DNA of 64,000 bases from Bradyrhizobium sp. RD5-C2 (GTDB lineage Bacteria; Pseudomonadota; Alphaproteobacteria; Rhizobiales; Xanthobacteraceae), in contig NZ_BOVL01000012.1 in assembly GCF_019972155.1 (NCBI RefSeq), forward strand, positions 173,855-237,854. The letters are read 5' to 3'. Below are positions 12,429 through 27,753 of this stretch, piece by piece. A program made the position numbers and the translations under genes. How positions within the stretch are numbered: the first letter of the stretch is position 1; each line of letters opens with the position of its first letter. The notes under the pieces were generated by a model, which saw only the letters and a program-made list of their open reading frames with translations, had not been told where the DNA came from and made no database searches.

Positions 12429-13475
12429 CTACGAGTTCGACGCCGCGCGGGTCGAGGCCGACTTGACGTCCTTGATGCTGACCACGACGGCGATGCGCTT
12501 GATCGAGCCGCTGCGATAGGCCTGCAGGAATTTGTCGTAGTGCTTGACCGAGATGCAGCCGTTCGAGTCGCCGTTCGGCCCGAGCATGTAGCTATGGACG
12601 AGCAGGCCGACACGCCCGAACGTATCGCTGCCATCGACCGGGGTCATGCGCAGCGCGGGCACGCCGTGGAACAACTTCTCGCGCGGCTTCATCTCGTAGA
12701 CGCCGGGCGGCGTCGCACCGGCGTTGCGGGCGGTCACATGCGACGGATCGTCGAGCAGATTGCCGAGCCCCGAATGCGCTTCGAACTTCGTGCCGTCGGG
12801 CATGTACACGATACGGCCGGTGATGTCGTAGACCGCCGTGGTGCTGTCATAACCGAGCGCACCGAGATCGAGGCTTGGGCCGGACAACAAGCCATCATTC
12901 GGATCGATCGAGGCCAACTGCAGCTTGCCCGGCATCATGTCGGCGATTTTCTGCAGGAACGTCCGGTTGTCGCCCTGCTGCACCGGCGCCTGCGGCGGCA
13001 GCGGCTGATCGTTGCGCGCGAGCAGATTGGCCTCGACCGGCCGCGATCGCGGCATCGGCACGGCGGAAGCTGCGGTCGAGGTCGTGGCCGCGACCGATGC
13101 CGTCGCCGGCTGGCTGGCCGGCAGTTCGGTCTGGGTGTCACGCAGCTGGCCCGACAGCGCGTCCTCGATCTGACCGAACTCGGAATCGAAATCGCCGCGG
13201 CTCGAACGGAACCCGCGGCGCAGAGGATAATAGAGCGAAGCCGTGTTGATCGTGGAGCGAGAGCCGAAGCGATCGTCGAAATTCAGCGAGGCCGTGGTGT
13301 TGGCGAGTGCCGGTCCATGCAGCCAAGCGGTCGGGTCGATGCCGACCATCCAGGCGGCAAGGCCAGACGACAGGACGAGCGCGGTCACGGCGAACGCCGT
13401 GCTGCCCACCAGAGACACGCCGCGGTTCGACTTACGCGCGGCTGCTTTCGTCGTACGTTGACCCATCATCCCCAA
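12429..13475 (-). CDS. DUF2778/Tlde1-fold (L,D-transpeptidase-like) envelope protein
   Basis: The 348-residue protein has one N-terminal membrane segment (residues about 22-46), a long Ala/Pro/Ser-rich low-complexity linker (about 100-170) and a C-terminal DUF2778 domain. That domain ends with a catalytic-type signature, VHSYMLGPNGDSNGCIS, giving His and Cys of the L,D-transpeptidase-like active site. Tlde1 proteins act on tetrapeptide stems of peptidoglycan. In rhizobia such proteins occur as anchored housekeeping envelope proteins, not only as secreted toxins. No immunity-like gene is adjacent, so an effector role is unlikely here. It converges on the MetE-like gene. Confidence 0.8.
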   Translation of the reverse strand: MGMMGQRTTKAAARKSNRGVSLVGSTAFAVTALVLSSGLAAWMVGIDPTAWLHGPALANTTASLNFDDRFGSRSTINTASLYYPLRRGFRSSRGDFDSEFGQIEDALSGQLRDTQTELPASQPATASVAATTSTAASAVPMPRSRPVEANLLARNDQPLPPQAPVQQGDNRTFLQKIADMMPGKLQLASIDPNDGLLSGPSLDLGALGYDSTTAVYDITGRIVYMPDGTKFEAHSGLGNLLDDPSHVTARNAGATPPGVYEMKPREKLFHGVPALRMTPVDGSDTFGRVGLLVHSYMLGPNGDSNGCISVKHYDKFLQAYRSGSIKRIAVVVSIKDVKSASTRAASNS

Positions 13476-13678
13476 GTCGGTGCTCTGGGGCCTGTTACCC
13501 GGCCCACGTTGGATTCACCGTTCACACATCATATCAGGGAATTAGAGTAAGGCATAATCGAGACGAAGCGGGCAACGACAGGATTTTTAAACGTTTTTCG
13601 GATGGAAAGTGCCGGCGAATCAGCCCCGGGCGGGGCGAAATGGCCGAAAAAGTCCCGTTTCGGGACAATTTCGGCGAC

Positions 13679-16060
13679 TCAGGCGATCTTTTCTTCCCGG
13701 AGGGTGAGCACCGGAACCGGCTTCCCGATGGCGTACCCTTGGGCGTAGTCGACCCCGATCAGGCGCAGCTCGTCCAGGATCGCGAGGCTCTCGACGAATT
13801 CGGCGACCACCTGCTTCTGCATGATCTTCGCGGTCTTGGTGATCATCTCGACCATCGCGCGATCGACCTTGCTGTTCAGGATCTCCTTCACGAACGAGCC
13901 GTCGATCTTGATGATGTCGACCGGCAGGTGCTTCAGATAGGCGATCGAGGACATGCCGGTGCCGAAATCGTCGAGCGAGAAGCTGCAGCCGATCTCGTGC
14001 AACCGCGCGATGAATGTCTGCGCCTCATCGAGATTCGAGATCGCGCTGGTCTCGGTGATCTCGAAACACACCAATGCCGGCGAAAAATCATGCTGCGCAA
14101 ACAGCTCGGCGACGAAGTCGACGAAGTCGCCGTCGCCGATCGTGGCGCCGGAAAGATTGATGGCGTAGCTCGCCACCCTGCGTGCGTGGTGTTTGCGCTC
14201 GGCGATGATCTCGAAGGCGCGGCGAACCACCCAGCGGTCGATCAGCGGCATCAGCCCGTAGCGTTCGGCCGCGGGCAGGAAGCTGCCGGGCGGCACCAGC
14301 GCACCGTTCTCGTCGCGCAGCCGCAGCAGCAGTTCGCGCCGCTCGTTGCCCCTCAGCGCACCGTTGATCGGGCGGATCTCCTGCTCGTAGAGGCAGAAGC
14401 GCCCCTCGTCCAATCCCCTGCGGATTCGATTGACCCAGCTCATCTCGGCGACGCGCACCGCCATGCCGGTATCGGACGGACGGTGCTCCTGGACGCGATT
14501 GCGTCCCTTGTCCTTGGCGAGGAAGCAGGCGACGTCGGCAAGCCGCAGCGCGTCCTGCACGCCGGCGCTGTCGCAAAGCGCGACCAGGCCGATGCTTGCG
14601 CTGATCCGGAAGCTCGAGCCCTCATGGACGAAGCTCGACTGCTCGACCACCGCCCTGATCCGCTCCGCGACATCGGCCGCAACGTCGTGCGTGGCGGAGC
14701 CATCGTCGCGCAGCAGAATGCCGAATTCGTCGCCGCCGAGACGCGCAACCAGCCCGCTGTCGCCGACCTCGGCGGCCAGCATCTTCGCCACCTGCTTCAG
14801 CAGCCGGTCACCCGCCATGTGGCCGCAGGTGTCGTTGACGATCTTGAACTGGTCGAGGTCGATCAGCATCAGATCGGCGCCCACGACCGGCGAGCCCGAC
14901 ATCGCCTTGTGCAGTTCGAACTCGAATTGCCGCCGGTTCGCAAGGCCGGTGAGCGCGTCATGGGACGCCGCCCAGGCCAGTTCCTCGACCAGCCGCCGCT
15001 CGGCGGTCATGTCGTGAATGATCATGACGCGGCCGGCCGGTTCGCGGGCATGCACGATCGCCGTCTCGACCACCGAGACCGGCACGCTGGAATGATCCGG
15101 CCGCACCAGCAGCCGCTGCTGCGGCCGGCTCTCGTCGTCGGCATCGGTGCTCTGGAACGATCCCCGCACCGGCTGCTCGGCAATGTTGAACAGCGATGAA
15201 AGCTGCCATCCGGTCACGTCCCGCCCCGGCGCGATCAGCCGCTGCGCGGCGCCGTTCATGTAACCGACGCGATCGTCCTGCGTGGTCACGATGACCGCGT
15301 CGCCGATCGAGGCCAGCGTGAGCTGGGCGCGCTCCTTCTCGACCGCGAGCGCGGTCTCGGCAAGCCAGCGGCGCCACAGCATCCGCCTTGTGTGGAACAG
15401 CACGATGCCGGCAAGGCAGGCCGCGATCACGAGATTGACCAGCTGCAACAGCGCGGAGACCTGACGCGACGCCTTCCCCAACTGGTCGGAGAAATCGACG
15501 GCGAGCGTGCTCAGTGCGGCGTCGACCGCACCGATCCGTTCGGCCCAGTGTTTGATGGTCGCAGCCGAGGGATCATGCAGCGCGACGTCGCTCGCGGCCT
15601 CGTTCCTGATTTCGATCAGCTGATCGAGCAGTGCATCCGAATTCCGCCAGGCCGTCACCGCGCCAGCCACGTGGTGCATCGTGCGGAAATATTTGAACAG
15701 CCAGATCAGGCCGCCGATGTCATCGTCATGATTGCCCGCTTTGGCGAAGCCACTCCTGGCCACGGCGTCGTTGTTGCCGGGCGCTTCCAGCCCGCGCCGC
15801 GCCGTGCGATCGGCCAGCGGCACCGCGATCGCGGCATCGAACTTCTGCAGATAGAGCGGCGCGCCGGTGCTGACATAGGTCTGAAGGTAGTAGATGGCGT
15901 CCTTCTGCCCCTTCGACCACAGGCTCTCGCCCGCCACATAGGCACGCACCGCGGACATCACCTGCAGGCTGCCGGCCGACAGACCGCCCAGCAGCAGCAC
16001 GATGGCGAGCAGAGGCCCGACCACCCGCCACAGTGACCAGCTTCGAAACGAAAAGAACAT
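13679..16060 (-). CDS. Membrane sensor GGDEF-EAL protein with PAS-like domain
   Basis: The protein has about 793 residues from the ATG at 16060. Longer versions would need a TTG at 16126. Two membrane segments bracket a periplasmic sensor region (residues about 12-245). A PAS-like domain follows, then GGDEF (ARLGGDEFG) and an EAL domain. The EAL motif itself is altered to ELLLR, but the Glu metal ligand is kept, as are CFEITET and LDDFGTG. The usual EGVE segment reads EFVES. It probably controls cyclic di-GMP in response to a periplasmic signal. The helical sensor domain is not a family I can name. Confidence 0.87.
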   Translation of the reverse strand: MFFSFRSWSLWRVVGPLLAIVLLLGGLSAGSLQVMSAVRAYVAGESLWSKGQKDAIYYLQTYVSTGAPLYLQKFDAAIAVPLADRTARRGLEAPGNNDAVARSGFAKAGNHDDDIGGLIWLFKYFRTMHHVAGAVTAWRNSDALLDQLIEIRNEAASDVALHDPSAATIKHWAERIGAVDAALSTLAVDFSDQLGKASRQVSALLQLVNLVIAACLAGIVLFHTRRMLWRRWLAETALAVEKERAQLTLASIGDAVIVTTQDDRVGYMNGAAQRLIAPGRDVTGWQLSSLFNIAEQPVRGSFQSTDADDESRPQQRLLVRPDHSSVPVSVVETAIVHAREPAGRVMIIHDMTAERRLVEELAWAASHDALTGLANRRQFEFELHKAMSGSPVVGADLMLIDLDQFKIVNDTCGHMAGDRLLKQVAKMLAAEVGDSGLVARLGGDEFGILLRDDGSATHDVAADVAERIRAVVEQSSFVHEGSSFRISASIGLVALCDSAGVQDALRLADVACFLAKDKGRNRVQEHRPSDTGMAVRVAEMSWVNRIRRGLDEGRFCLYEQEIRPINGALRGNERRELLLRLRDENGALVPPGSFLPAAERYGLMPLIDRWVVRRAFEIIAERKHHARRVASYAINLSGATIGDGDFVDFVAELFAQHDFSPALVCFEITETSAISNLDEAQTFIARLHEIGCSFSLDDFGTGMSSIAYLKHLPVDIIKIDGSFVKEILNSKVDRAMVEMITKTAKIMQKQVVAEFVESLAILDELRLIGVDYAQGYAIGKPVPVLTLREEKIA

Positions 16061-16206
16061 GCCCAATGCGCCCGACCCTGAAATGTCGGGTAAGCCTAGG
16101 AATGCCGGCTTAACCTCACGTTGCAAAACGCGATGAGTTTGAAACGACTTGGCTGTAACGCAATTGCGTCAAACTTTACCCGTCCCGTCCGACCGCAGCC
16201 GGCCGC

Positions 16207-18379: not shown

Positions 18380-19471
18380 CTACTTTGTGAATCTGGGCCT
18401 TGTGGATGTCGGCGGCGTTGGCGCCGCGGGCTGAAGATTGAACGTCAGCCAGACGTTCCAGCCTGCTGGCCGATTTTCATTGGCGAATTCGCCGTAGCCC
18501 TTCAGGTTCAGATATCCCTGCATGTCCCCCACCGGGAAAATGTAGCCGACCTGCGGGCCGACGCCGGCCACGCGCGACCGAAAGCAGCCGACGCGATCGC
18601 CGGAGCCGCTGTCGCATCCGAGCCCCTGATAGAGGTAACCGACGAGGCCGACCTGCCACTGCTTGGTCAGGAATTGCGACGCGCCCCAGTCGAGGTGCAT
18701 GTCGACGCCGCTTTGATATTCAGTGGAGGGGTTGACGAAGTTGTAGGTGAACCCCAGCACTGCCGAAAATTCGTGCCCGGTCTTTGGATCGAAATAGGTG
18801 TAGCCGCCGCCCGCGTCGATTGCCCAGTGCCCAATCCCCAAATTCGCGAGGCGGGTCGACTGGTAGGCGCCGGCCGGGAGGTCGGCGGTAATGTACGTCA
18901 TGTAATTGTTGACACCGGCATTCCAGCGCAGCGCGAACTGCGGGATCAGGTCGCCGAATGCAATGAGCGAGCTGTCGATGCTGTCAAACCGGGAGAAGGG
19001 GGACGTGGCGCCGCCCGGTCCCGTCAACGTCCCCACAAGCGATCCAGCGAGCGAGGTGGAGTTGGATCCGTAGGCCGCCAACAGGGTGGCAGAGGCCTGA
19101 CCACCAAGCACCGGTGTCGCAAAAGTATAAGTCCCGGCCAGAAAGCCAAGGTTCACATTCGCATTGACGTTCGCGCTCACGTTGGCTGTCAGATTCGCGG
19201 GAAAGCGACCGAGCGTGATTTCGCGCGACCGCGCCACGTCGGCGCCGGCGGAAACAGAGGTGTGATAATAAATCGAGGTCACCGACCAGCCCGGCGCCTG
19301 CTGAGGAACAGCCGCGAGGCTGCCAAAAAATCCGGGCACCCAAAAGCTGATGCCATTTTCATCGGCGCGAGCCGCTGGGGTGGAAAGCACCAGCAGAGCG
19401 GCAAGCGCCCCAACACTCAAATGCCACTGCGAAAAAAATCTGCGTCGCAAACCCGGTCCAAGGTACCACAT
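18380..19471 (-). CDS. SphA/MetA-pathway family outer-membrane protein
   Basis: The protein has about 363 residues from the ATG at 19471, with a signal peptide whose hydrophobic core is GALAALLVLST and which is cut after ARA. An upstream start at 19570 would precede the signal with 33 odd residues. The mature part opens GISFWVPGFFGSLAAVPQ and consists of alternating strands ending in an aromatic residue (NVWLTFNLQP), as in beta-barrels of the phenol-degradation MetA/SphA family. It probably forms an outer-membrane channel for hydrophobic or aromatic compounds. It is divergent from the formylglycine-generating enzyme/sulfatase operon, so uptake of aryl sulfates or release of their products is a plausible role. 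Confidence 0.82.
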   Translation of the reverse strand: MWYLGPGLRRRFFSQWHLSVGALAALLVLSTPAARADENGISFWVPGFFGSLAAVPQQAPGWSVTSIYYHTSVSAGADVARSREITLGRFPANLTANVSANVNANVNLGFLAGTYTFATPVLGGQASATLLAAYGSNSTSLAGSLVGTLTGPGGATSPFSRFDSIDSSLIAFGDLIPQFALRWNAGVNNYMTYITADLPAGAYQSTRLANLGIGHWAIDAGGGYTYFDPKTGHEFSAVLGFTYNFVNPSTEYQSGVDMHLDWGASQFLTKQWQVGLVGYLYQGLGCDSGSGDRVGCFRSRVAGVGPQVGYIFPVGDMQGYLNLKGYGEFANENRPAGWNVWLTFNLQPAAPTPPTSTRPRFTK

Positions 19472-19900
19472 CGCCGATCCCCCGACTCTCGCGATCCCGC
19501 CATTGCTCCGGCGGGGTAGAAACTCGGAAAGAGTAAGCTGACGCTGCCGTTGGTCCATGCGAAATCGCAATACTTGCGTTCAGCCGGCCTTTTTATTGAT
19601 GGGCTGTGTCGATGACACCACAGCGTTGGCACTTTTTGCATAGTCGTCAGGGGCTCTTGATAAGGAAGACGCGACCTGACTCGATTGACCTAGATCAACA
19701 TAGAAGGATGCCTTGCTGGAGCATCTTATCTTGTCTAGTTCGTAGACGCCTTGTAGTCGCGTTTCAGATACTCGATCGTCTTTTGACTGACCAAGGCGTT
19801 AAGCCGTTCCCCGAAGCAATCGGCGAACTAGAAAGCTGCCGAGAGCTTCTTGCTCAGGGCGGCGTCGGTAACCTTGAAACTCGTTCACTGCGGGCAGCCC
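19472..19900. promoter_or_regulatory. Divergent control region of the sulfatase island
   Basis: About 430 bases separate the SphA-like gene from the FGE-like gene. A FixK/FNR-type box at 19685-19698 lies almost midway and could serve either direction. TATCTT at 19727-19732 is a possible rightward -10 element at the distance expected from an activator centred at -41.5. No other gene is supported. Confidence 0.45.
19685..19698. promoter_or_regulatory. FixK/FNR-type box TTGACCTAGATCAA
   Basis: The 14-mer has perfect TTGA-N6-TCAA half-sites, the established FNR/FixK recognition pattern. It lies 202 bases before the FGE ATG and 213 bases before the SphA-like ATG. An identical copy occurs at 23357-23370. 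Confidence 0.65.
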
Positions 19901-20884
19901 ATGCACGACGTTGGCGTTGCGGCAGGCGTGCCTTTGTCGGATGGGCCCGGCCAAAGGTGCATGATCTGGATCCCCGGCGGCACGTTCCGCATGGGCTCCG
20001 ACAGGCACTATGCCGAAGAGGCGCCGGTCCATCGCGTCTCGGTGAGCGGCTTCTGGATGGATGCAACGCCGGTCACCAATCGCGATTTTCGCAAGTTCGT
20101 CAACACAACAGGCTACGTGACACTCGCGGAGACGCGGCCTGACGCAAAAGACTATCCGGGCGCACTGCCGCACATGCTCAAGGCAGGCTCGCTGGTTTTC
20201 ACGCCACCGAAGCATCCGGTCGATTTGCGCGACTGGTCGCAATGGTGGAGTTTCAAATTTGGCGCCAACTGGCGCCGGCCATACGGCCCCCGCAGTTCGA
20301 TCAGCGGCCTCGACGATCATCCCGTGGTCCACATTGCCTATCGTGATGCTGAGGCCTACGCGGCGTGGGCTGGCAAGGACTTGCCGACCGAAGCCGAATG
20401 GGAGTTTGCCGCGCGCGGCGGACTCGACGGCGCGGAATTCGCATGGGGTGACGAGCAACTTCCCGGCGGCAGGCACATGGCGAATACCTGGCAGGGCAAT
20501 TTCCCGCACCAGAATCTGGTGGCTGATGGCTTCGAACGCACCTCGCCCGTCACCGCGTTCCCGGTCAATGGCTACGGCCTTCATGACATGATCGGCAATG
20601 TCTGGGAATGGACGGCCGATTGGTATTCACAGAGGCACGACGCAGACGCCCCGAAAGCCTGCTGCATTCCGCAAAATCCTCGCGGCGGGTCCGAGGGCGC
20701 GAGCTACGACTCTGGTCAGCCGAACCTCAGAATTCCGCGCAAGGTGCTTAAAGGCGGCTCGCATCTTTGCGCGCCCAGCTACTGCCGCCGCTATCGTCCG
20801 GCCGCGCGTCATGCCGAGCCGATCGACACCTCAGCAAGCCATGTCGGCTTCAGGTGCATCACCAGGAAGAGGATCACGTCATGA
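19901..20884 (+). CDS. Formylglycine-generating enzyme (sulfatase-activating, SUMF1/FGE type)
   Basis: The protein has 327 residues from the ATG at 19901. A TTG at 19850 would add 17. The FGE-sulfatase fold shows in the WIPGGTFRMGSD opening, LPTEAEWEFAARGG and GNVWEWTADWY. The two active-site cysteines of genuine FGE are present as C290 and C295 in LCAPSYCRRYR, which distinguishes it from ergothioneine or PvdO relatives. It would convert the Cys of a sulfatase CxPxR/CxAxR motif to formylglycine in the cytoplasm before export. Its TGA overlaps the ATG of the sulfatase at 20881, so enzyme and substrate are translationally coupled. Confidence 0.93.
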   Translation: MHDVGVAAGVPLSDGPGQRCMIWIPGGTFRMGSDRHYAEEAPVHRVSVSGFWMDATPVTNRDFRKFVNTTGYVTLAETRPDAKDYPGALPHMLKAGSLVFTPPKHPVDLRDWSQWWSFKFGANWRRPYGPRSSISGLDDHPVVHIAYRDAEAYAAWAGKDLPTEAEWEFAARGGLDGAEFAWGDEQLPGGRHMANTWQGNFPHQNLVADGFERTSPVTAFPVNGYGLHDMIGNVWEWTADWYSQRHDADAPKACCIPQNPRGGSEGASYDSGQPNLRIPRKVLKGGSHLCAPSYCRRYRPAARHAEPIDTSASHVGFRCITRKRITS

Positions 20885-22596
20885 GTAACGATACGATTCC
20901 GGAAAAGCCTGAGATGAGCACGGGACCCACCAGCGCAGGATTGAAACGCCGCGATCTGTTGTTGAGCGGTAGTTCGCTCGTCGCCGCTTCAGCACTCTCT
21001 GCCGTTGGTGCGACAAGCTTCGCACAAGCGCAGCAACCAACGTCGGCCCCGGTGCCCGCGCCGGCCGGACAGCGGCCCAATATCGTCGTCATCATGGGTG
21101 ACGACATCGGCATCTGGAATATCGGCGCCTACCACCGCGGCATGATGGCGGGCCGGACGCCGAATCTCGATCAGATCGCCGCCGAGGGCATGCTGTTCAC
21201 CGATTACTACGCCGAGGCGAGTTGCACAGCGGGCCGCGCCAACTTCATCACCGGCGAGCTGCCGATCCGGACCGGGATGACCACGGTCGGCCAGGCCGGC
21301 GCACCCACAGGCATACCCGCGCAGGCCGTAACCATCGCTACCGCGCTGAAAGGAATGGGCTACGCCACCGGCCAGTTCGGCAAGAACCACCTTGGCGACA
21401 AAAACGAGTTTCTGCCGACGGTGCACGGTTTCGACGAGTTCTTCGGCTACCTGTATCACCTCGATGCGATGGAAGATCCAGCGCATCCCGCCTATCCTCA
21501 GGAGTTGCTGAACACCGTCGGTCCACGCAACATGCTCCATTGTTATGCGACCAATGTCGACGACGCTACCGTGGATCCGCGCTGGGGCAAGGTCGGCAAA
21601 CAGAAGATCGAGGACGCGGGCACGCTCTATCCCAAGCGGATGGAAACCGTGGACGACGAAATCCGCGACTTTGCGCTCAAGTTCATCGACAAGGCCAAGG
21701 CCGACAACAAGCCGTTCTTCCTGTGGCTCAATCCGACCCGCATGCACATCGTCACCCATCTGTCGCCGAAGTACGAAGCGCTGCGCAACTCCAAGAACGG
21801 CTGGACCATCCATGAGGCCGGCATGGCGCAGCTCGACGACGACGTCGGCATCGTGATGAAGAAACTCAAGGACATGGGCGTCGACGACAACACCATCGTG
21901 ATCTTCACTACCGACAACGGCACCGAGGTATTCACCTGGCCTGATGGTGGACAGACGCCATTCGCGCAGAGCAAGGGCACGGTCTTGGAAGGCGGCTTCC
22001 GCGCGCCGGCGATGATCCGCTGGCCGGGCAAGGTGCCGGCGGGCAAGGTCGAGAACGGCATCATCTCCGGGCTGGACTGGTTTCCGACCCTCCTTGCGGC
22101 GGCCGGCAACCCGAACATTGTCGAAGAGCTGAAGAAGGGCAAGCAGATCGGTGACACGACCTACAAATGTCATCTGGACGGCTATAACCAGATGGACATG
22201 ATTACCGGCAAGGGGCCGTCGAACCGGCACGAAATCTGGTACTTCGGGGAAAGCGAACTGGGTGCCGTGCGCATCGACGACTACAAGTATCGCTTCATCG
22301 ACCAGCCTGGAGGCTGGCTGGGTGAAAAAACCAAGCCTGACGTGCCCTACCTGATTAACCTTCGCCTCGATCCTTTCGAGCGAACGGGATGGCCCGATAG
22401 CGGGACCAAATACGGCGCGCAACAATACTTTGACTGGTTCAAATTCGAATTCTGGCGCTTTGTGTTTGTTCAGCAGCAGGTGGAAAAGCTGGCGATGACG
22501 GCGATCGAGTTTCCGCCGATGCAGAAAGGCGCGAGTTTCAATCTCGATGCCGTGAAGGCGAAAATCGAGGCCGCCAGGACGGCGATGGCAAAATAG
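20881..22596 (+). CDS. Exported Cys-type sulfatase with CTAGR motif
   Basis: The 571-residue protein has a Tat-type signal (LKRRDLLLSGSSLVAASALS), with the mature part starting near residue 51. Alkaline-phosphatase-fold sulfatase features are MGDDIG (72-77) and C115-T-A-G-R, where C115 would become formylglycine. GKNHLGD and FTTDNG complete the metal and sulfate site. The third motif residue is Ala rather than the classical Pro. It probably removes sulfate from a periplasmic sulfate ester. Tat export of a folded protein fits cytoplasmic modification by the FGE encoded just upstream (ATGA overlap). The natural substrate is unknown. Confidence 0.93.
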   Translation: MSNDTIPEKPEMSTGPTSAGLKRRDLLLSGSSLVAASALSAVGATSFAQAQQPTSAPVPAPAGQRPNIVVIMGDDIGIWNIGAYHRGMMAGRTPNLDQIAAEGMLFTDYYAEASCTAGRANFITGELPIRTGMTTVGQAGAPTGIPAQAVTIATALKGMGYATGQFGKNHLGDKNEFLPTVHGFDEFFGYLYHLDAMEDPAHPAYPQELLNTVGPRNMLHCYATNVDDATVDPRWGKVGKQKIEDAGTLYPKRMETVDDEIRDFALKFIDKAKADNKPFFLWLNPTRMHIVTHLSPKYEALRNSKNGWTIHEAGMAQLDDDVGIVMKKLKDMGVDDNTIVIFTTDNGTEVFTWPDGGQTPFAQSKGTVLEGGFRAPAMIRWPGKVPAGKVENGIISGLDWFPTLLAAAGNPNIVEELKKGKQIGDTTYKCHLDGYNQMDMITGKGPSNRHEIWYFGESELGAVRIDDYKYRFIDQPGGWLGEKTKPDVPYLINLRLDPFERTGWPDSGTKYGAQQYFDWFKFEFWRFVFVQQQVEKLAMTAIEFPPMQKGASFNLDAVKAKIEAARTAMAK

Positions 22597-22623
22597 CATG
22601 TATTCATGATCGGCATGGTGCGA

Positions 22624-22639
22624 GCGGCCTCTAGGCCGC
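22624..22639 (+). terminator. Hairpin after the first sulfatase
   Basis: GCGGCC and GGCCGC arms flank a TCTA loop 28 bases past the sulfatase stop. No T-run follows. It is a weak terminator candidate. Confidence 0.3.
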
Positions 22640-22667
22640 CCGCGCAGCACCGGGAAAGTGTCTCCTC

Positions 22668-22751
22668 CTGGCCCTGAGCGGCCGACCCGGCATGTCCGCT
22701 CCATACCCGCTCCTTGGGGGTGAAGTGGACTTGATAAGCTTAACCCGAGTT
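22668..22751. repeat. Direct repeat copy 1 flanking the second sulfatase cassette
   Basis: This 84-base element starts CTGGCCCTGAGCGG and ends TTAACCCGAGTT. It is identical to the element at 26307-26379 except for an 11-base insertion (ATACCCGCTCC) and one A/T change. The two copies lie in the same orientation about 3.6 kb apart and bracket the small periplasmic protein and the second sulfatase. Confidence 0.85.
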
Positions 22752-22837
22752 CTTCCGGATCTGACCCAGATCGGAAGTCAAGCCTACGACGCTATGCTCC
22801 TAGGCTCCCACGGCCGGATCATTCATCCACGTCTTAC

Positions 22838-23254
22838 TCAAGTCTTCCCCGCGGACGTCACATCGCAGCGAACATACTGCGTTTCCATTGGCACCGGCTT
22901 CTTGGAGCTGAGTGTGATGCTATTCTCTCCGGTGATTTTCACGTCAAATGGCACATCTGAAACCGCGACGCCGTCAGAGCACGACGCAATCACTTGCAGA
23001 TCCGCCCCGTCATCGTGCAACGATTTGACAGTGCATTTTTGAAATGTGCCAGTTATTTGCTTTCCTTGAACGATTAAACCGCCCGCGTGGAGATCAGCAT
23101 CTTGCTTGAATGCAAGTTTGTTGTTCTTTTTGGTGAAGATCTGACTGCAGGCCGACGCGTCGTCGGTCCAAGCTCCGTTCAAATCCGCAGCCTGTGTCGA
23201 GGCGGATTGCGTAAGGAGAAGTGCTAACAGCACCAACGGATTGAAGGCTCTCAT
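22838..23254 (-). CDS. Small secreted protein, function unknown
   Basis: The 138-residue protein has a clear signal peptide (core NPLVLLALLLTQSAS, cut after QAA). The mature part of about 116 residues starts DLNGAWTDD and contains four Cys, suggesting periplasmic disulfides. The beta-rich pattern (GLIVQGKQITGTF, DVKITGENSITL) recalls small lipocalin-like domains, but I cannot name a family. It is divergent from the second sulfatase and has its own FixK/FNR-type box about 103 bases upstream. It lies inside the direct-repeat-flanked segment. Confidence 0.75.
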   Translation of the reverse strand: MRAFNPLVLLALLLTQSASTQAADLNGAWTDDASACSQIFTKKNNKLAFKQDADLHAGGLIVQGKQITGTFQKCTVKSLHDDGADLQVIASCSDGVAVSDVPFDVKITGENSITLSSKKPVPMETQYVRCDVTSAGKT

Positions 23255-23356
23255 GAAACCCTCCTCAAATGGTCAATTGGCTACCGGAGTCCAACACGAG
23301 AGAGCAGAGGCTGTCCCGCCGCAGCAAGTTGCAATAACAAAAAAGCGCATGCGATC

Positions 23357-23370
23357 TTGACCTAGATCAA
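23357..23370. promoter_or_regulatory. FixK/FNR-type box TTGACCTAGATCAA
   Basis: This 14-mer is identical to the one at 19685-19698. Centred 109 bases before the small secreted protein's ATG, it would place a transcription start near 23322 with a leader of about 68 bases if it works as a class II activator site. Confidence 0.65.
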
Positions 23371-23548
23371 GCTTTGTTCGCGGCATTCTGTCCCGGTAGT
23401 CGTTCAGAGTGGCGCCGCTTCGGCACTCCGTGCCGCGACATCAATTCAAGCAGCTCAGGCACAGCAAACGGCGGGTCAAAAGCCGAACATTCTGTTCAAT
23501 AGGCGACTTTTGACCCGAAGCTGACGTTTCAGACCCGTGGGCGGAATG

Positions 23549-23562
23549 TTGATCTGGATCAC
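23549..23562. promoter_or_regulatory. FixK/FNR-type box TTGATCTGGATCAC (one mismatch)
   Basis: The left half-site TTGAT is perfect and the right reads ATCAC instead of ATCAA. It is centred about 78 bases before the ATG of the second sulfatase, a plausible activator position giving a leader of about 37 bases. Confidence 0.5.
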
Positions 23563-23633
23563 CAGAAGCGTTGCTGCATTGTGTCGCAGATCGGCGCCGA
23601 CAGGGTTCTGACCTCTCCAAGAGGGAACTTCCA

Positions 23634-26195
23634 ATGTCCCGCATCCGTCAGAATGGCGATAGCTTAAAGCCAGACAGCCGCTTACTATACCGTCGCAACA
23701 TGCTGCTTTGCGGCACCACACTCACCGCCGCTTATTTGCTGTGCGCGCTGGGAACAACCAGCCTCGCGCAGCAAACCACCGGCACGCCGGGCTCACCCGG
23801 CGCCACCACGACGATCGATGGAAAGTATCTTCCGCCGCCACCGTCAAAGTTCGGCGGTGACATCAATCTACAGGCCAGCCAGTCAAAACCGTATTGGCCC
23901 GCCCGAGTGGTGCCGCCCAAGGATGCACCCAACGTTCTCCTGATCATGACCGACGACCAAGGCTATGGAGTTTCTGGGACGTTCGGCGGCGTCATCCCGA
24001 CACCTGCGATGGATCGCATTGCGCAGATGGGGCTGCGCTACACTCAGTTCCATTCCACAGCATTATGCTCGCCGACGCGGGCAGCGCTGATCACTGGCCG
24101 TAACCACCACTCGGTGGGGTTTGGCGTCATTTCTGAGCAATCGACGGGCTATCCGGGTTACGACAGCATTATTGGACCGGAGAACGCCACCATTGGCACG
24201 ATCCTGAAGCAGAACGGCTACGCCACGTCCTGGTTCGGCAAGAACCACAACACGCCCAGCTATCAGTACAGCTCGGCCGGTCCCTTCGACCAGTGGCCAA
24301 TCGGCATGGGCTTCGACTATTTCTACGGCTTCATGGGCGGCGAGACCGACCAGTGGACGCCGTATCTGTTCCAGAACACGACGCAGGTTTTCCCCTGGGT
24401 CGGAAAGCCCGGCTACAATCTGACTACGGACCTGGCCGATGATGCGATTGCCCACTTGCGGCAGCTCAATGCCGCCGCCCCCGATCAGCCGTTCTTCGTC
24501 TACTACGTGCCCGGTGGCACCCATTCGCCGCATCAGCCGACCAAGGAATGGATCGACAAGTTCAAGGGCAAGTTCGACATGGGCTGGAACGCCCTGCGTG
24601 ACCAGATTTTCGCCAATCAAAAGCGGCTTGGCGTCATTCCTGGGAACACCCAGCTCACAGCCTGGCCGGACGTCCTGCAGAAGTGGGAGACTTTGACGGC
24701 CGATGAAAAGAAGCTTTTTGCAAGGCAGGCTGAAGTGTTCGCCGGTTATGTCGCCTACACCGACCATGAGATCGGCCGCGTGATCCAGGAAGTCCAGGAC
24801 GAAGGTAAGCTCGACAACACACTGATCATCTATATCAGTGGTGACAACGGCACGAGTCCTGAAGGCACAGCGCGCGGGACGCCGAACCAATATACCGCTT
24901 ACAACGGCATATTGGATCTTCCGATTGCCGAGCAGTTGAAAGTCTATGACGCCTGGGGCTCGGCGGTTACATACCCGCACATGGCGGTGGCCTGGTCATG
25001 GGCCTTCGACACGCCGTTCAAATGGACGAAAGAGGTGGCGTCGCACTTCGGCGGCACCCGGCAGGGCATGGCGATCTGCTGGCCGAACCGCATCAAGGAT
25101 GCCGGCGGCATCCGCACCCAGTTCCACCACATGATCGACATCGTGCCGACCATCCTTGAGGCAACCGGCATTCCCGCGCCGGTGATGGTCAACGGCATCG
25201 CACAGAAGCCGATCGAAGGGGTGGGTATGGCGTACACCTTTGACAAGGCAAACACCAACGTTCCGTCCGCGCGCACGACGCAGTATTTCGAGATGTTCGC
25301 CAACCGCGCGATCTATCACGACAGCTGGATCGCGGCGACAACACCGCCCGCGCCGCCATGGCTCATGGGCACCGCCAAGCTGCCGGAGGACGTGGTCAAT
25401 GGCTACAAGTGGGAACTCTACAACATCGCTGAGGACTACTCGGAGAGCAACGACCTCGCCGGAAGTATGCCTGACAAGCTGCGCGAGCTGCAGGAGCTAT
25501 TCATGGTAGAGGCGACGAAGTACAATGTGTTTCCGCTGGACAACTCGGTCCTTGCGCGCGTCATCGCACCAAGGCCCAGCGCGACCGCCGGTCGGAACAT
25601 TTTCACCTATTCGGGTGAGGTGGCGGGTATCCCCGCAAGCGATGCGCCCAGCATCCTGAACAGGTCCTTTACGATCACCGCCGAAGTGGACGTTCCGAGC
25701 CGTGCAGGCGTTACCGTTGGGAATACGAGCCCACAGGGCAGCAGCGAAGGGATGATCGTCACCCTCGGCGGCCGTTTCGGTGGCTATGGCCTGTATCTGC
25801 TCAAGGGCAAGCCGGTTTTCGTCTATAACTTCGCCGACCTCGAACGCTTCCGCTGGGAAGGCAAGGATGCGCTCACGCCGGGCAAGCACACCATCGTGTT
25901 CGACTTTAAATACGATGGACCCGGCTTCGGCAAGGGCGGCACAGGCGTGCTGAAGGTGGACGATAACGAGGCTGCGACCAGCAAAGTCCCGCACACCCTT
26001 CCATTCATCATGTCAATTGACGAAACCTTCGATGTGGGTGTCGATACCCGTACCCCCGTTGACGACAAGGACTATCAGGTGCCCTTCCGCTTTACGGGCA
26101 ACCTTGACAACCTCACCTTCAAGGTCGGCCCGGTGCAACTCACCAGCGAGGAGCATCAGGTCATTCGACACGCGCGCGCTGGCGCGAACAACTGA
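23634..26195 (+). CDS. Large exported arylsulfatase with CSPTR motif
   Basis: The 853-residue protein has an N-terminal export signal (residues about 19-47, with an RR pair before the hydrophobic core). Catalytic elements are IMTDDQGYG (104-112), C145-S-P-T-R and GRNHH, followed by YISGDNGTS. This is the classical AtsA-type Cys sulfatase. A C-terminal extension beyond about residue 700 looks beta-rich, perhaps a lectin-like fold. Activation needs an FGE, and the only one in the window is at 19901-20884. The ATG at 23634 has AGAGGGA upstream. The gene is bracketed by direct repeats and preceded by FixK-type boxes. Confidence 0.93.
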   Translation: MSRIRQNGDSLKPDSRLLYRRNMLLCGTTLTAAYLLCALGTTSLAQQTTGTPGSPGATTTIDGKYLPPPPSKFGGDINLQASQSKPYWPARVVPPKDAPNVLLIMTDDQGYGVSGTFGGVIPTPAMDRIAQMGLRYTQFHSTALCSPTRAALITGRNHHSVGFGVISEQSTGYPGYDSIIGPENATIGTILKQNGYATSWFGKNHNTPSYQYSSAGPFDQWPIGMGFDYFYGFMGGETDQWTPYLFQNTTQVFPWVGKPGYNLTTDLADDAIAHLRQLNAAAPDQPFFVYYVPGGTHSPHQPTKEWIDKFKGKFDMGWNALRDQIFANQKRLGVIPGNTQLTAWPDVLQKWETLTADEKKLFARQAEVFAGYVAYTDHEIGRVIQEVQDEGKLDNTLIIYISGDNGTSPEGTARGTPNQYTAYNGILDLPIAEQLKVYDAWGSAVTYPHMAVAWSWAFDTPFKWTKEVASHFGGTRQGMAICWPNRIKDAGGIRTQFHHMIDIVPTILEATGIPAPVMVNGIAQKPIEGVGMAYTFDKANTNVPSARTTQYFEMFANRAIYHDSWIAATTPPAPPWLMGTAKLPEDVVNGYKWELYNIAEDYSESNDLAGSMPDKLRELQELFMVEATKYNVFPLDNSVLARVIAPRPSATAGRNIFTYSGEVAGIPASDAPSILNRSFTITAEVDVPSRAGVTVGNTSPQGSSEGMIVTLGGRFGGYGLYLLKGKPVFVYNFADLERFRWEGKDALTPGKHTIVFDFKYDGPGFGKGGTGVLKVDDNEAATSKVPHTLPFIMSIDETFDVGVDTRTPVDDKDYQVPFRFTGNLDNLTFKVGPVQLTSEEHQVIRHARAGANN

Positions 26196-26454: not shown

Positions 26455-27753
26455 ATGGCTGCCAAGGAATTTCTGCGAAACAATTGGCCTGCGATCACGA
26501 TCGGCGTGACCGCCGCCGCGATCGCGTTGGCGGCTATTGTGATGCTGATCAATATGCCTCCACGTACGGTTGTCATGGCGACCGGTCCCGAGGGAGGCGC
26601 CTACCAAGAGCTTGGTAAGCGCTATCGCGCGGAACTCGCGAAGGAAGGCGTAGAGGTGCGACTGATGCCGACTGCAGGTTCGCCCGAAAACCGGGCGCTG
26701 CTGCTCGACCAGCATTCGGGAGTAAGCGTCGCGCTGATCCAGGGTGGCACTATGAGCCAGGAAGATGGTTCGAAGCTTGCCTCACTCGGAACGCTCTACT
26801 ACGAGCCCTTGTGGTGGTTCCGCAGGCGCGAGATCCAAGTTGATGGAGCCGCTTATCTCGTGGGCAAGAGACTGTCGATTGGGCCCGAGGGCAGCGGGAC
26901 TCGAGCGCTATCGCTCGAATACTTCAAAATCCTCGGATTTGACCAGCAGGTCGGTGAATGGCTAGCCCTGCCTACGCAAACTGCTGGAGAAAGTCTCTTG
27001 GCCGGTCAGATCGATGCAGTATCGATGGTGGCTGCATGGGACGCACCCGAGGTGCAGCAACTTCTCGGCGACGAGCGCGTCACCCTCACGGGTTATCGGC
27101 GCTTGAATGCCCTTATCGCGCGCCTTCCATTTTTGAGCAAGGTGGTGGTGCCAAGGGGAGTCAGAGACCTAGCAAAGGATCTGCCGCCAACGGATGTGAC
27201 CTTGATCGCAGTGAAGGCCAACTTGATAGTGCGAAACGATCTGCATTCGGCCCTTCAGTACCTGCTGCTCGACGCGGCGGAGCATATCCACTCGTCACCG
27301 AGTATTTTTCAACGCGCCAATGAATTTCCCGCTGGCGAAGCCGTCGATGTTCCACTGAGCAACGAGGCGCTGCGATTCTACAAATCGGGGCGGCCTTTCC
27401 TGCACGATTATCTTCCGTTCTGGGTCGCGGAGCTGACTGGCAAGCTGTTTATCCTACTCATTCCGATCCTGGGCGTGCTCTACCCAATGACGCAATATCT
27501 GCCTCGCCTATATGACTGGGCGATGCGATCGAAGGTATTGCGCATGTACGGAGAACTGCGGTTTCTGGAAGATGAGATCGCGGACGCCCGACGCACCAAG
27601 CGTGATACGAGGGAAATGGTCTTGCAGCTCAATGGCCTCAAGGAGCAAGCAAACCGACTAAAGGTTCCGATTGCTTATGCGGATATGCTGTACTCTCTGC
27701 GAGCTCATATCGACCTCGCACACGAAAAAGTACGCCGACAATTAGCTGAATAA
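26455..27753 (+). CDS. Membrane-anchored TAXI-family (TRAP-type) binding protein
   Basis: The 432-residue protein has an uncleaved-looking N-terminal membrane helix (residues 12-33). A TAXI/NMT1-like periplasmic binding domain follows (ATGPEGGAYQELG at 42-54, IGPEGSGTR at 142-150). A second membrane helix lies at about 325-345, then a charged, probably coiled-coil cytoplasmic tail. Classical TAXI binding proteins are soluble and pair with a fused DctQM permease. No permease gene is adjacent. With two anchors and a cytoplasmic tail, a sensing or assembly role is as likely as transport. It follows the second sulfatase and direct repeat copy 2. Confidence 0.85.
   Translation: MAAKEFLRNNWPAITIGVTAAAIALAAIVMLINMPPRTVVMATGPEGGAYQELGKRYRAELAKEGVEVRLMPTAGSPENRALLLDQHSGVSVALIQGGTMSQEDGSKLASLGTLYYEPLWWFRRREIQVDGAAYLVGKRLSIGPEGSGTRALSLEYFKILGFDQQVGEWLALPTQTAGESLLAGQIDAVSMVAAWDAPEVQQLLGDERVTLTGYRRLNALIARLPFLSKVVVPRGVRDLAKDLPPTDVTLIAVKANLIVRNDLHSALQYLLLDAAEHIHSSPSIFQRANEFPAGEAVDVPLSNEALRFYKSGRPFLHDYLPFWVAELTGKLFILLIPILGVLYPMTQYLPRLYDWAMRSKVLRMYGELRFLEDEIADARRTKRDTREMVLQLNGLKEQANRLKVPIAYADMLYSLRAHIDLAHEKVRRQLAE

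Follow-up and report, generated by a model that had tools for sequence, protein, structure and literature searches.

Candidate FNR/FixK-type sites point to low-oxygen control of a sulfatase and sulfatase-maturase island in Bradyrhizobium

The FixK2 regulon of Bradyrhizobium diazoefficiens, exemplified by napEDABC and nosRZDFYLX, serves respiration and denitrification; in the section of PMC5582078 that deals with its sites, the FixK2 site of napEDABC reads TTGATCCAGATCAA, and at nosR transcription starts 40.5 bp from the axis of the box. FNR regulons of the FnrN/AadR type are known from Alphaproteobacteria, and the relevant part of a comparative regulon paper (PMC4999443) gives TTGANCNNGATCAANG as the FnrN/FixK consensus and describes the FnrN and FixK sites as very similar. 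Type I sulfatases are matured by the formylglycine-generating enzyme (FGE), which, according to the pertinent part of PMC4505483, uses molecular oxygen and copper. The locus described here, an island of two sulfatase genes (S1 and S2), an FGE gene and genes for envelope proteins within 64,000 nucleotides of Bradyrhizobium sp. RD5-C2 DNA (contig NZ_BOVL01000012.1; this whole 64-kb stretch is termed the window), resembles each of these systems and differs from each. It shares with the FixK2 regulon the genus-level setting and the box, but the targets are sulfatases, a maturase and envelope proteins, and the genome is without ccoN or nifH above cut-off. It shares with the FnrN/AadR-type regulons an FNR-type protein with a cysteine-rich N-terminus and boxes at the 5' end of its own gene, whereas the main text of PMC4999443 names no sulfatase. 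It shares with the FGE-dependent systems an FGE with the C-x4-C cysteine pair and PF00884 sulfatases bearing the motifs CTAGR and CSPTR, but here these genes stand behind what appears to be the site of a low-oxygen regulator.

A link between sulfatases or arylsulfatases and FixK2, FixK, FNR/Anr or low oxygen is not described in the open literature searched, a search that does not extend to the 2008 FixK2 regulon list; the word 'sulfatase' is absent from the main text of PMC6515984, and the parts of PMC3557214 and PMC2245857 consulted are unrelated to such a link. The site is of a known kind and the proposed regulon members are new. From the evidence below we infer, with good support, that the island is under low-oxygen control: its boxes are real and very probably functional, and it is likely that all three bind an FNR/FixK-type regulator working when oxygen is scarce.

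The order of the island from left to right is a gene for a channel-like protein (minus strand), box 1, FGE (plus), S1 (plus), a gene for a 138-aa protein (minus), box 2, box 3, S2 (plus) and a TAXI-like gene (plus); no strand is assigned to the boxes. Box 1 (19685..19698), TTGACCTAGATCAA, lies in the spacer that separates FGE from the channel-like gene divergent from it. Box 2 (23357..23370), of the same sequence, precedes the divergent 138-aa gene by 102 nt and the start codon of S2 by 263 nt, and hence is closer to the former, a point on which the preliminary description of this DNA was silent. Box 3 (23549..23562), TTGATCTGGATCAC, is situated 71 nt upstream of the start codon of S2. Boxes 1 and 2 conform exactly to TTGA-N6-TCAA, are the only such sites in the window, and match the first 14 positions of the FnrN/FixK consensus as given in the part of PMC4999443 cited above, from which box 3 differs at the last A. 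The preliminary description had reported two identical boxes and a third with one mismatch; the identical copies stand, at 19685 and 23357, while the third, at 23549, has a single mismatch only with respect to TTGA-N6-TCAA and three with respect to boxes 1 and 2. It had also placed each box in a spacer containing a promoter. All three do lie between genes with a family match or a signal-peptide-like start; the promoters were not confirmed, no sigma-70-like promoter being found at 19450-23700, where shuffled sequence gives a mean of 1.1.

Could the boxes be chance palindromes? Shuffled versions of the window hold a mean of 0.32 TTGA-N6-TCAA sites and 7 of 100 reach two, and enrichment judged from the window alone is only suggestive. 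The genome as a whole (8.26 Mb, rated 100% complete) gives a different picture: the exact 14-mer TTGACCTAGATCAA occurs six times and its reversed control not at all, and TTGAYNNNNATCAA gives 63 strand-hits, at 46 unique sites, as against one for the control. One exact TTGACCTAGATCAA lies 93 nt upstream of a third, unlinked sulfatase gene (L116:6083-7866, C20:37582-39365; 558 aa, CTAGR). The chance of finding three boxed among seven to ten sulfatase promoters, a promoter count set by eye, is roughly 4e-7 to 3e-4 for uniform or six-fold denser sites.

Relatives provide further evidence on this point. A search of 146 genomes of the genus for FGE homologues supplied upstream regions, which were scanned for a strict box, TTGAYN4RTCAA, with the reversed motif as control. 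The set consisted of 30 first loci, 60 more taken in rank order (G132:C159, with no locus, was passed over and lower ranks were left out) and the C10 and C56 copies of this genome, 92 regions in all, from which five with less than 400 nt upstream were dropped. Strict boxes were present in 30 of the remaining 87 regions (29/84 without this genome) and reversed ones in none (0/87); of the 54 genomes behind these regions, 27 have at least one boxed FGE. These boxes start 145-290 nt before FGE codon 39. The 14-mer TTGATCCAGATCAA of the napEDABC site is itself present at the boxed FGE relatives L165 and L170 and, in the opposite direction, at the S2 relative L265.

S2 homologues behave likewise: 14 of 30 loci have a strict box within the 600 nt upstream that were scanned, and none has the control motif. 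The closest S2 orthologues (L265-L268) carry intact boxes 152-177 nt before codon 53, and box 3 of the window is at 178; because the intact boxes occupy its position, box 3 is probably their orthologue, altered in the last base. Since the mean information content of the whole box is inflated by selection on the pattern, only the positions left free by the search were used as a measure of conservation: after removal of sequences with similar flanks, the four free central positions contain 1.1-2.0 bits at FGE boxes (14 sequences) and 0.65-1.6 bits at S2 boxes (13), compared with averages of about 0.3 for the flanking positions. On a tree built from 51 FGE proteins, 17 of them boxed, the box label requires seven changes, a number as low as which was reached in none of 500 shuffles (mean 14.4), and the boxed proteins fall in four separate groups.

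Within the named S1 set, the best 80 of at least 571 candidates, 13 of 16 Bradyrhizobium loci and 2 of 62 others have a strict box in the 5 kb upstream of S1, the counts for 1.5 kb being 8/16 and 0/62, respectively; two metagenome loci bearing no genus name (L030 and L042, neither boxed) were left out of this comparison, and the two boxed loci from outside Bradyrhizobium have the cores CCGCCG and CCGTGG. The named and unnamed locus sets are not independent, because their genomes overlap (L100 and L170, for example, have identical FGE rows). Some boxed S1 genes have no FGE match (L031, L034) or only a partial one between box and S1 (L033, L036, L060), as if box and sulfatase were kept while FGE decays. 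Together the genome-wide and cross-species data make the enrichment convincing, and recurrence at homologous promoters across the genus bears out the assignment to the FNR/FixK type made in the preliminary description. That the boxes arose by chance, which the frequency of two strict sites per shuffled 64 kb would allow, is very improbable: it is already contradicted by the conservation, with no hits of the reversed control at homologous promoters, and by the excess over the genome.

Regulators able to bind such sites are predicted in the genome, as had been proposed. The 22 matches to HTH_Crp_2 include members of other helix-turn-helix families, and the E-T-V-S-R recognition helix, which reads TTGA half-sites, was seen by eye in only two. 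One, L127 (C24), is a FixK relative whose best solved relative is the FixK2 structure 4i2o (278 bits, 5.5e-82), and which scores 214.6 bits with NCBIfam FixK, below the 300-bit cut-off. The other, L126 (C57), is FNR-type: its N-terminus is cysteine-rich, with a spacing that we take, by eye, to be FNR-like, and two boxes lie at its own 5' end. The second of these overlaps the longest frame, and a later methionine is therefore the likelier start.

These observations bear also on the nature of the signal. CRP/FNR relatives share similar sites, as the part of PMC4999443 concerned with them indicates, and a family member responding to nitric oxide, redox state or nitrate, or one acting as a repressor, might occupy the boxes; control of the sulfatases would then not be a low-oxygen response as such. 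The FixK-like gene adjoins a receiver-like frame and a histidine kinase (L110:16106-19454, C24) in which HisKA and HATPase_c were the only domains recognised, no search aimed at the FixLJ family having been made; this is not an obvious FixL, and FixK may take its input from something other than a classical FixL. We nevertheless regard a different signal or repression as quite unlikely, for the only two E-T-V-S-R proteins among the 22 matches are FixK-like and of FNR-like cysteine-rich start, and the boxed genes include an oxidase cluster and an aspartate decarboxylase-antiporter pair, both fitting low oxygen.

The boxed genes elsewhere in the genome, namely a COX1-type oxidase cluster, aspartate 4-decarboxylase with its antiporter, a Usp protein and PPK2, look like a low-oxygen regulon. 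The genes for aspartate 4-decarboxylase and the aspartate-alanine antiporter diverge around a spacer with two boxes (L111:3329-6975, C24), which suggests that an aspartate decarboxylase-antiporter proton-motive cycle is under low-oxygen control.

A further question is which genes the boxes serve. They could be real regulator sites acting mainly on the divergent channel and 138-aa genes, in an envelope response to low oxygen, with the sulfatases merely nearby. All four channel orthologues of at least 81% identity are boxed, at 126-134 nt from residue 1 of the longest frame, a tighter spacing than that to FGE in the same clade (252-290 nt); box 2 is nearer the 138-aa gene, and this pairing is repeated in L032, where a box lies 171 nt before a 71% homologue. 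Against this reading, none of nine more distant channel homologues is boxed, boxes precede FGE or S1 in clades without an adjoining close homologue of the channel or 138-aa gene, and S2 orthologues have boxes at the place of box 3. We therefore hold it unlikely that the divergent genes are the main targets.

Low-oxygen control of the sulfatase genes themselves would proceed as follows. Scarcity of oxygen would activate the FNR-type protein, via an iron-sulfur cluster, the FixK protein, or both; bound to a box some 40 bp ahead of the transcription start, a dimer of the regulator would recruit RNA polymerase. Box 1 would control the FGE-S1 operon and probably also the divergent channel gene, box 3 would control S2, and the probable target of box 2 would be the divergent 138-aa gene, with a possible further contribution to S2. 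Channel, maturase and two predicted exported sulfatases would thus be produced together, and the sulfatases would free sulfate, or the desulfated carbon skeleton, from periplasmic sulfate esters.

Several results weigh against this scheme. No -10 element was found at constant spacing from the boxes; the chosen FGE start is 202 nt away from box 1, a long distance if the site is to act at -40; and the G that stands two bases after the box in the consensus, as given in the cited part of PMC4999443, is absent at all three. A strict box is lacking from 57 of 87 FGE regions, those of the C10 and C56 copies in this genome included, and from 16 of 30 S2 regions. The box of the third sulfatase is found in none of six orthologues of at least 66% identity.

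Counting boxes over the 30 third-sulfatase rows gave eight, which we rejected as support: one is this genome itself, and the other seven are TTGATCCATGTCAA at -336 to -409. These copies, 336-409 nt before sulfatases L312, L313, L317, L318, L320, L322 and L323, probably lie inside the coding sequence of a preceding FGE (positions compared by eye), which is a caution for motif counts.

As the preliminary description had it, this is a sulfatase island, with a channel-like protein. FGE (19901..20884, plus strand) matches PF03781 (275 bits) and has the copper/active-site cysteine pair, C-x4-C, when aligned to human FGE, which assigns it to the formylglycine-generating sulfatase maturases; the start at 19901 is our choice, the longest frame beginning at 19850. 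Between box 1 and this gene, the sequence at 19740-19900 resembles, by eye, a decayed minus-strand gene fragment. S1 (20881..22596, plus), whose start codon overlaps the FGE stop, matches PF00884 (175 bits) and has the CTAGR motif; S2 (23634..26195, plus) matches PF00884 (203 bits), has the CSPTR motif, and has the arylsulfatase 1hdh as nearest solved relative. Both begin with a twin-arginine-like leader and, leaders and formylglycine-type motifs being judged by eye, the combination of PF00884 with C-x-P/A-x-R marks them as putative type I sulfatases. The channel-like outer-membrane protein divergent from FGE (18380..19570 in the longest frame, minus) matches PF13557 (142 bits).

The 138-aa protein divergent from S2 (22838..23254, minus) looks exported, having a signal-peptide-like start, and has no match in Pfam or NCBIfam. 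Direct comparison shows that the box-rich C24 region encodes a paralogue of 31% identity (L110:5696-6109); the tblastn scan for this protein is insensitive, because it missed that paralogue. Downstream of S2 is a TAXI/NMT1-like solute-binding protein (26455..27753, plus; PF16868, 73.5 bits; TIGR02122, 66.5 bits, below cut-off), and the C24 region holds a second NMT1/TAXI-like protein; the window and C24 loci each have, near boxes, a member of the exported-looking family of about 138 aa, which lacks a Pfam match, and each also has an NMT1/TAXI-like protein. A few kb to the left of the island (12429-16126), two minus-strand genes encode a Tlde1-domain protein and a GGDEF-EAL protein.

That the first gene of the island encodes an oxygen-using maturase had also gone unremarked. 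The radical-SAM sulfatase maturase family gave a single match in the genome, which scored 37 bits (cut-off 349). The island's own maturase belongs to the O2-using type, and none of the anaerobic kind reaches cut-off, so that a step which consumes oxygen appears to be driven by a low-oxygen switch; the raised level of FGE possibly makes up for its scarce oxygen substrate. More broadly, sulfate-ester hydrolysis may belong to the low-oxygen programme of much of Bradyrhizobium, with FGE raised along with the sulfatases so that formylglycine formation keeps pace, a compensation for oxygen scarcity built into the operon; we put this forward tentatively, as possible but doubtful.

The preliminary description had suggested nodules or flooded soil as the setting. 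Since the best matches to nifH (24.4 bits, cut-off 394) and ccoN (22.9 bits, cut-off 583) are far below cut-off in a genome rated complete, a symbiotic setting is not supported, and we rejected a role in the nodule or bacteroid for this organism. Waterlogged or microoxic soil is a possible setting.

A large share of the sulfur in soil is in sulfate esters, and the usual view of bacterial sulfatases is that they respond to the supply of sulfur or substrate. Through the genes described here, it is probably oxygen supply that governs access to sulfate esters, which raises the question of how an oxygen-consuming maturase serves enzymes produced at low oxygen. If true, a link to oxygen that extends over many species in a soil genus of such importance would alter models of sulfur release in waterlogged soil.

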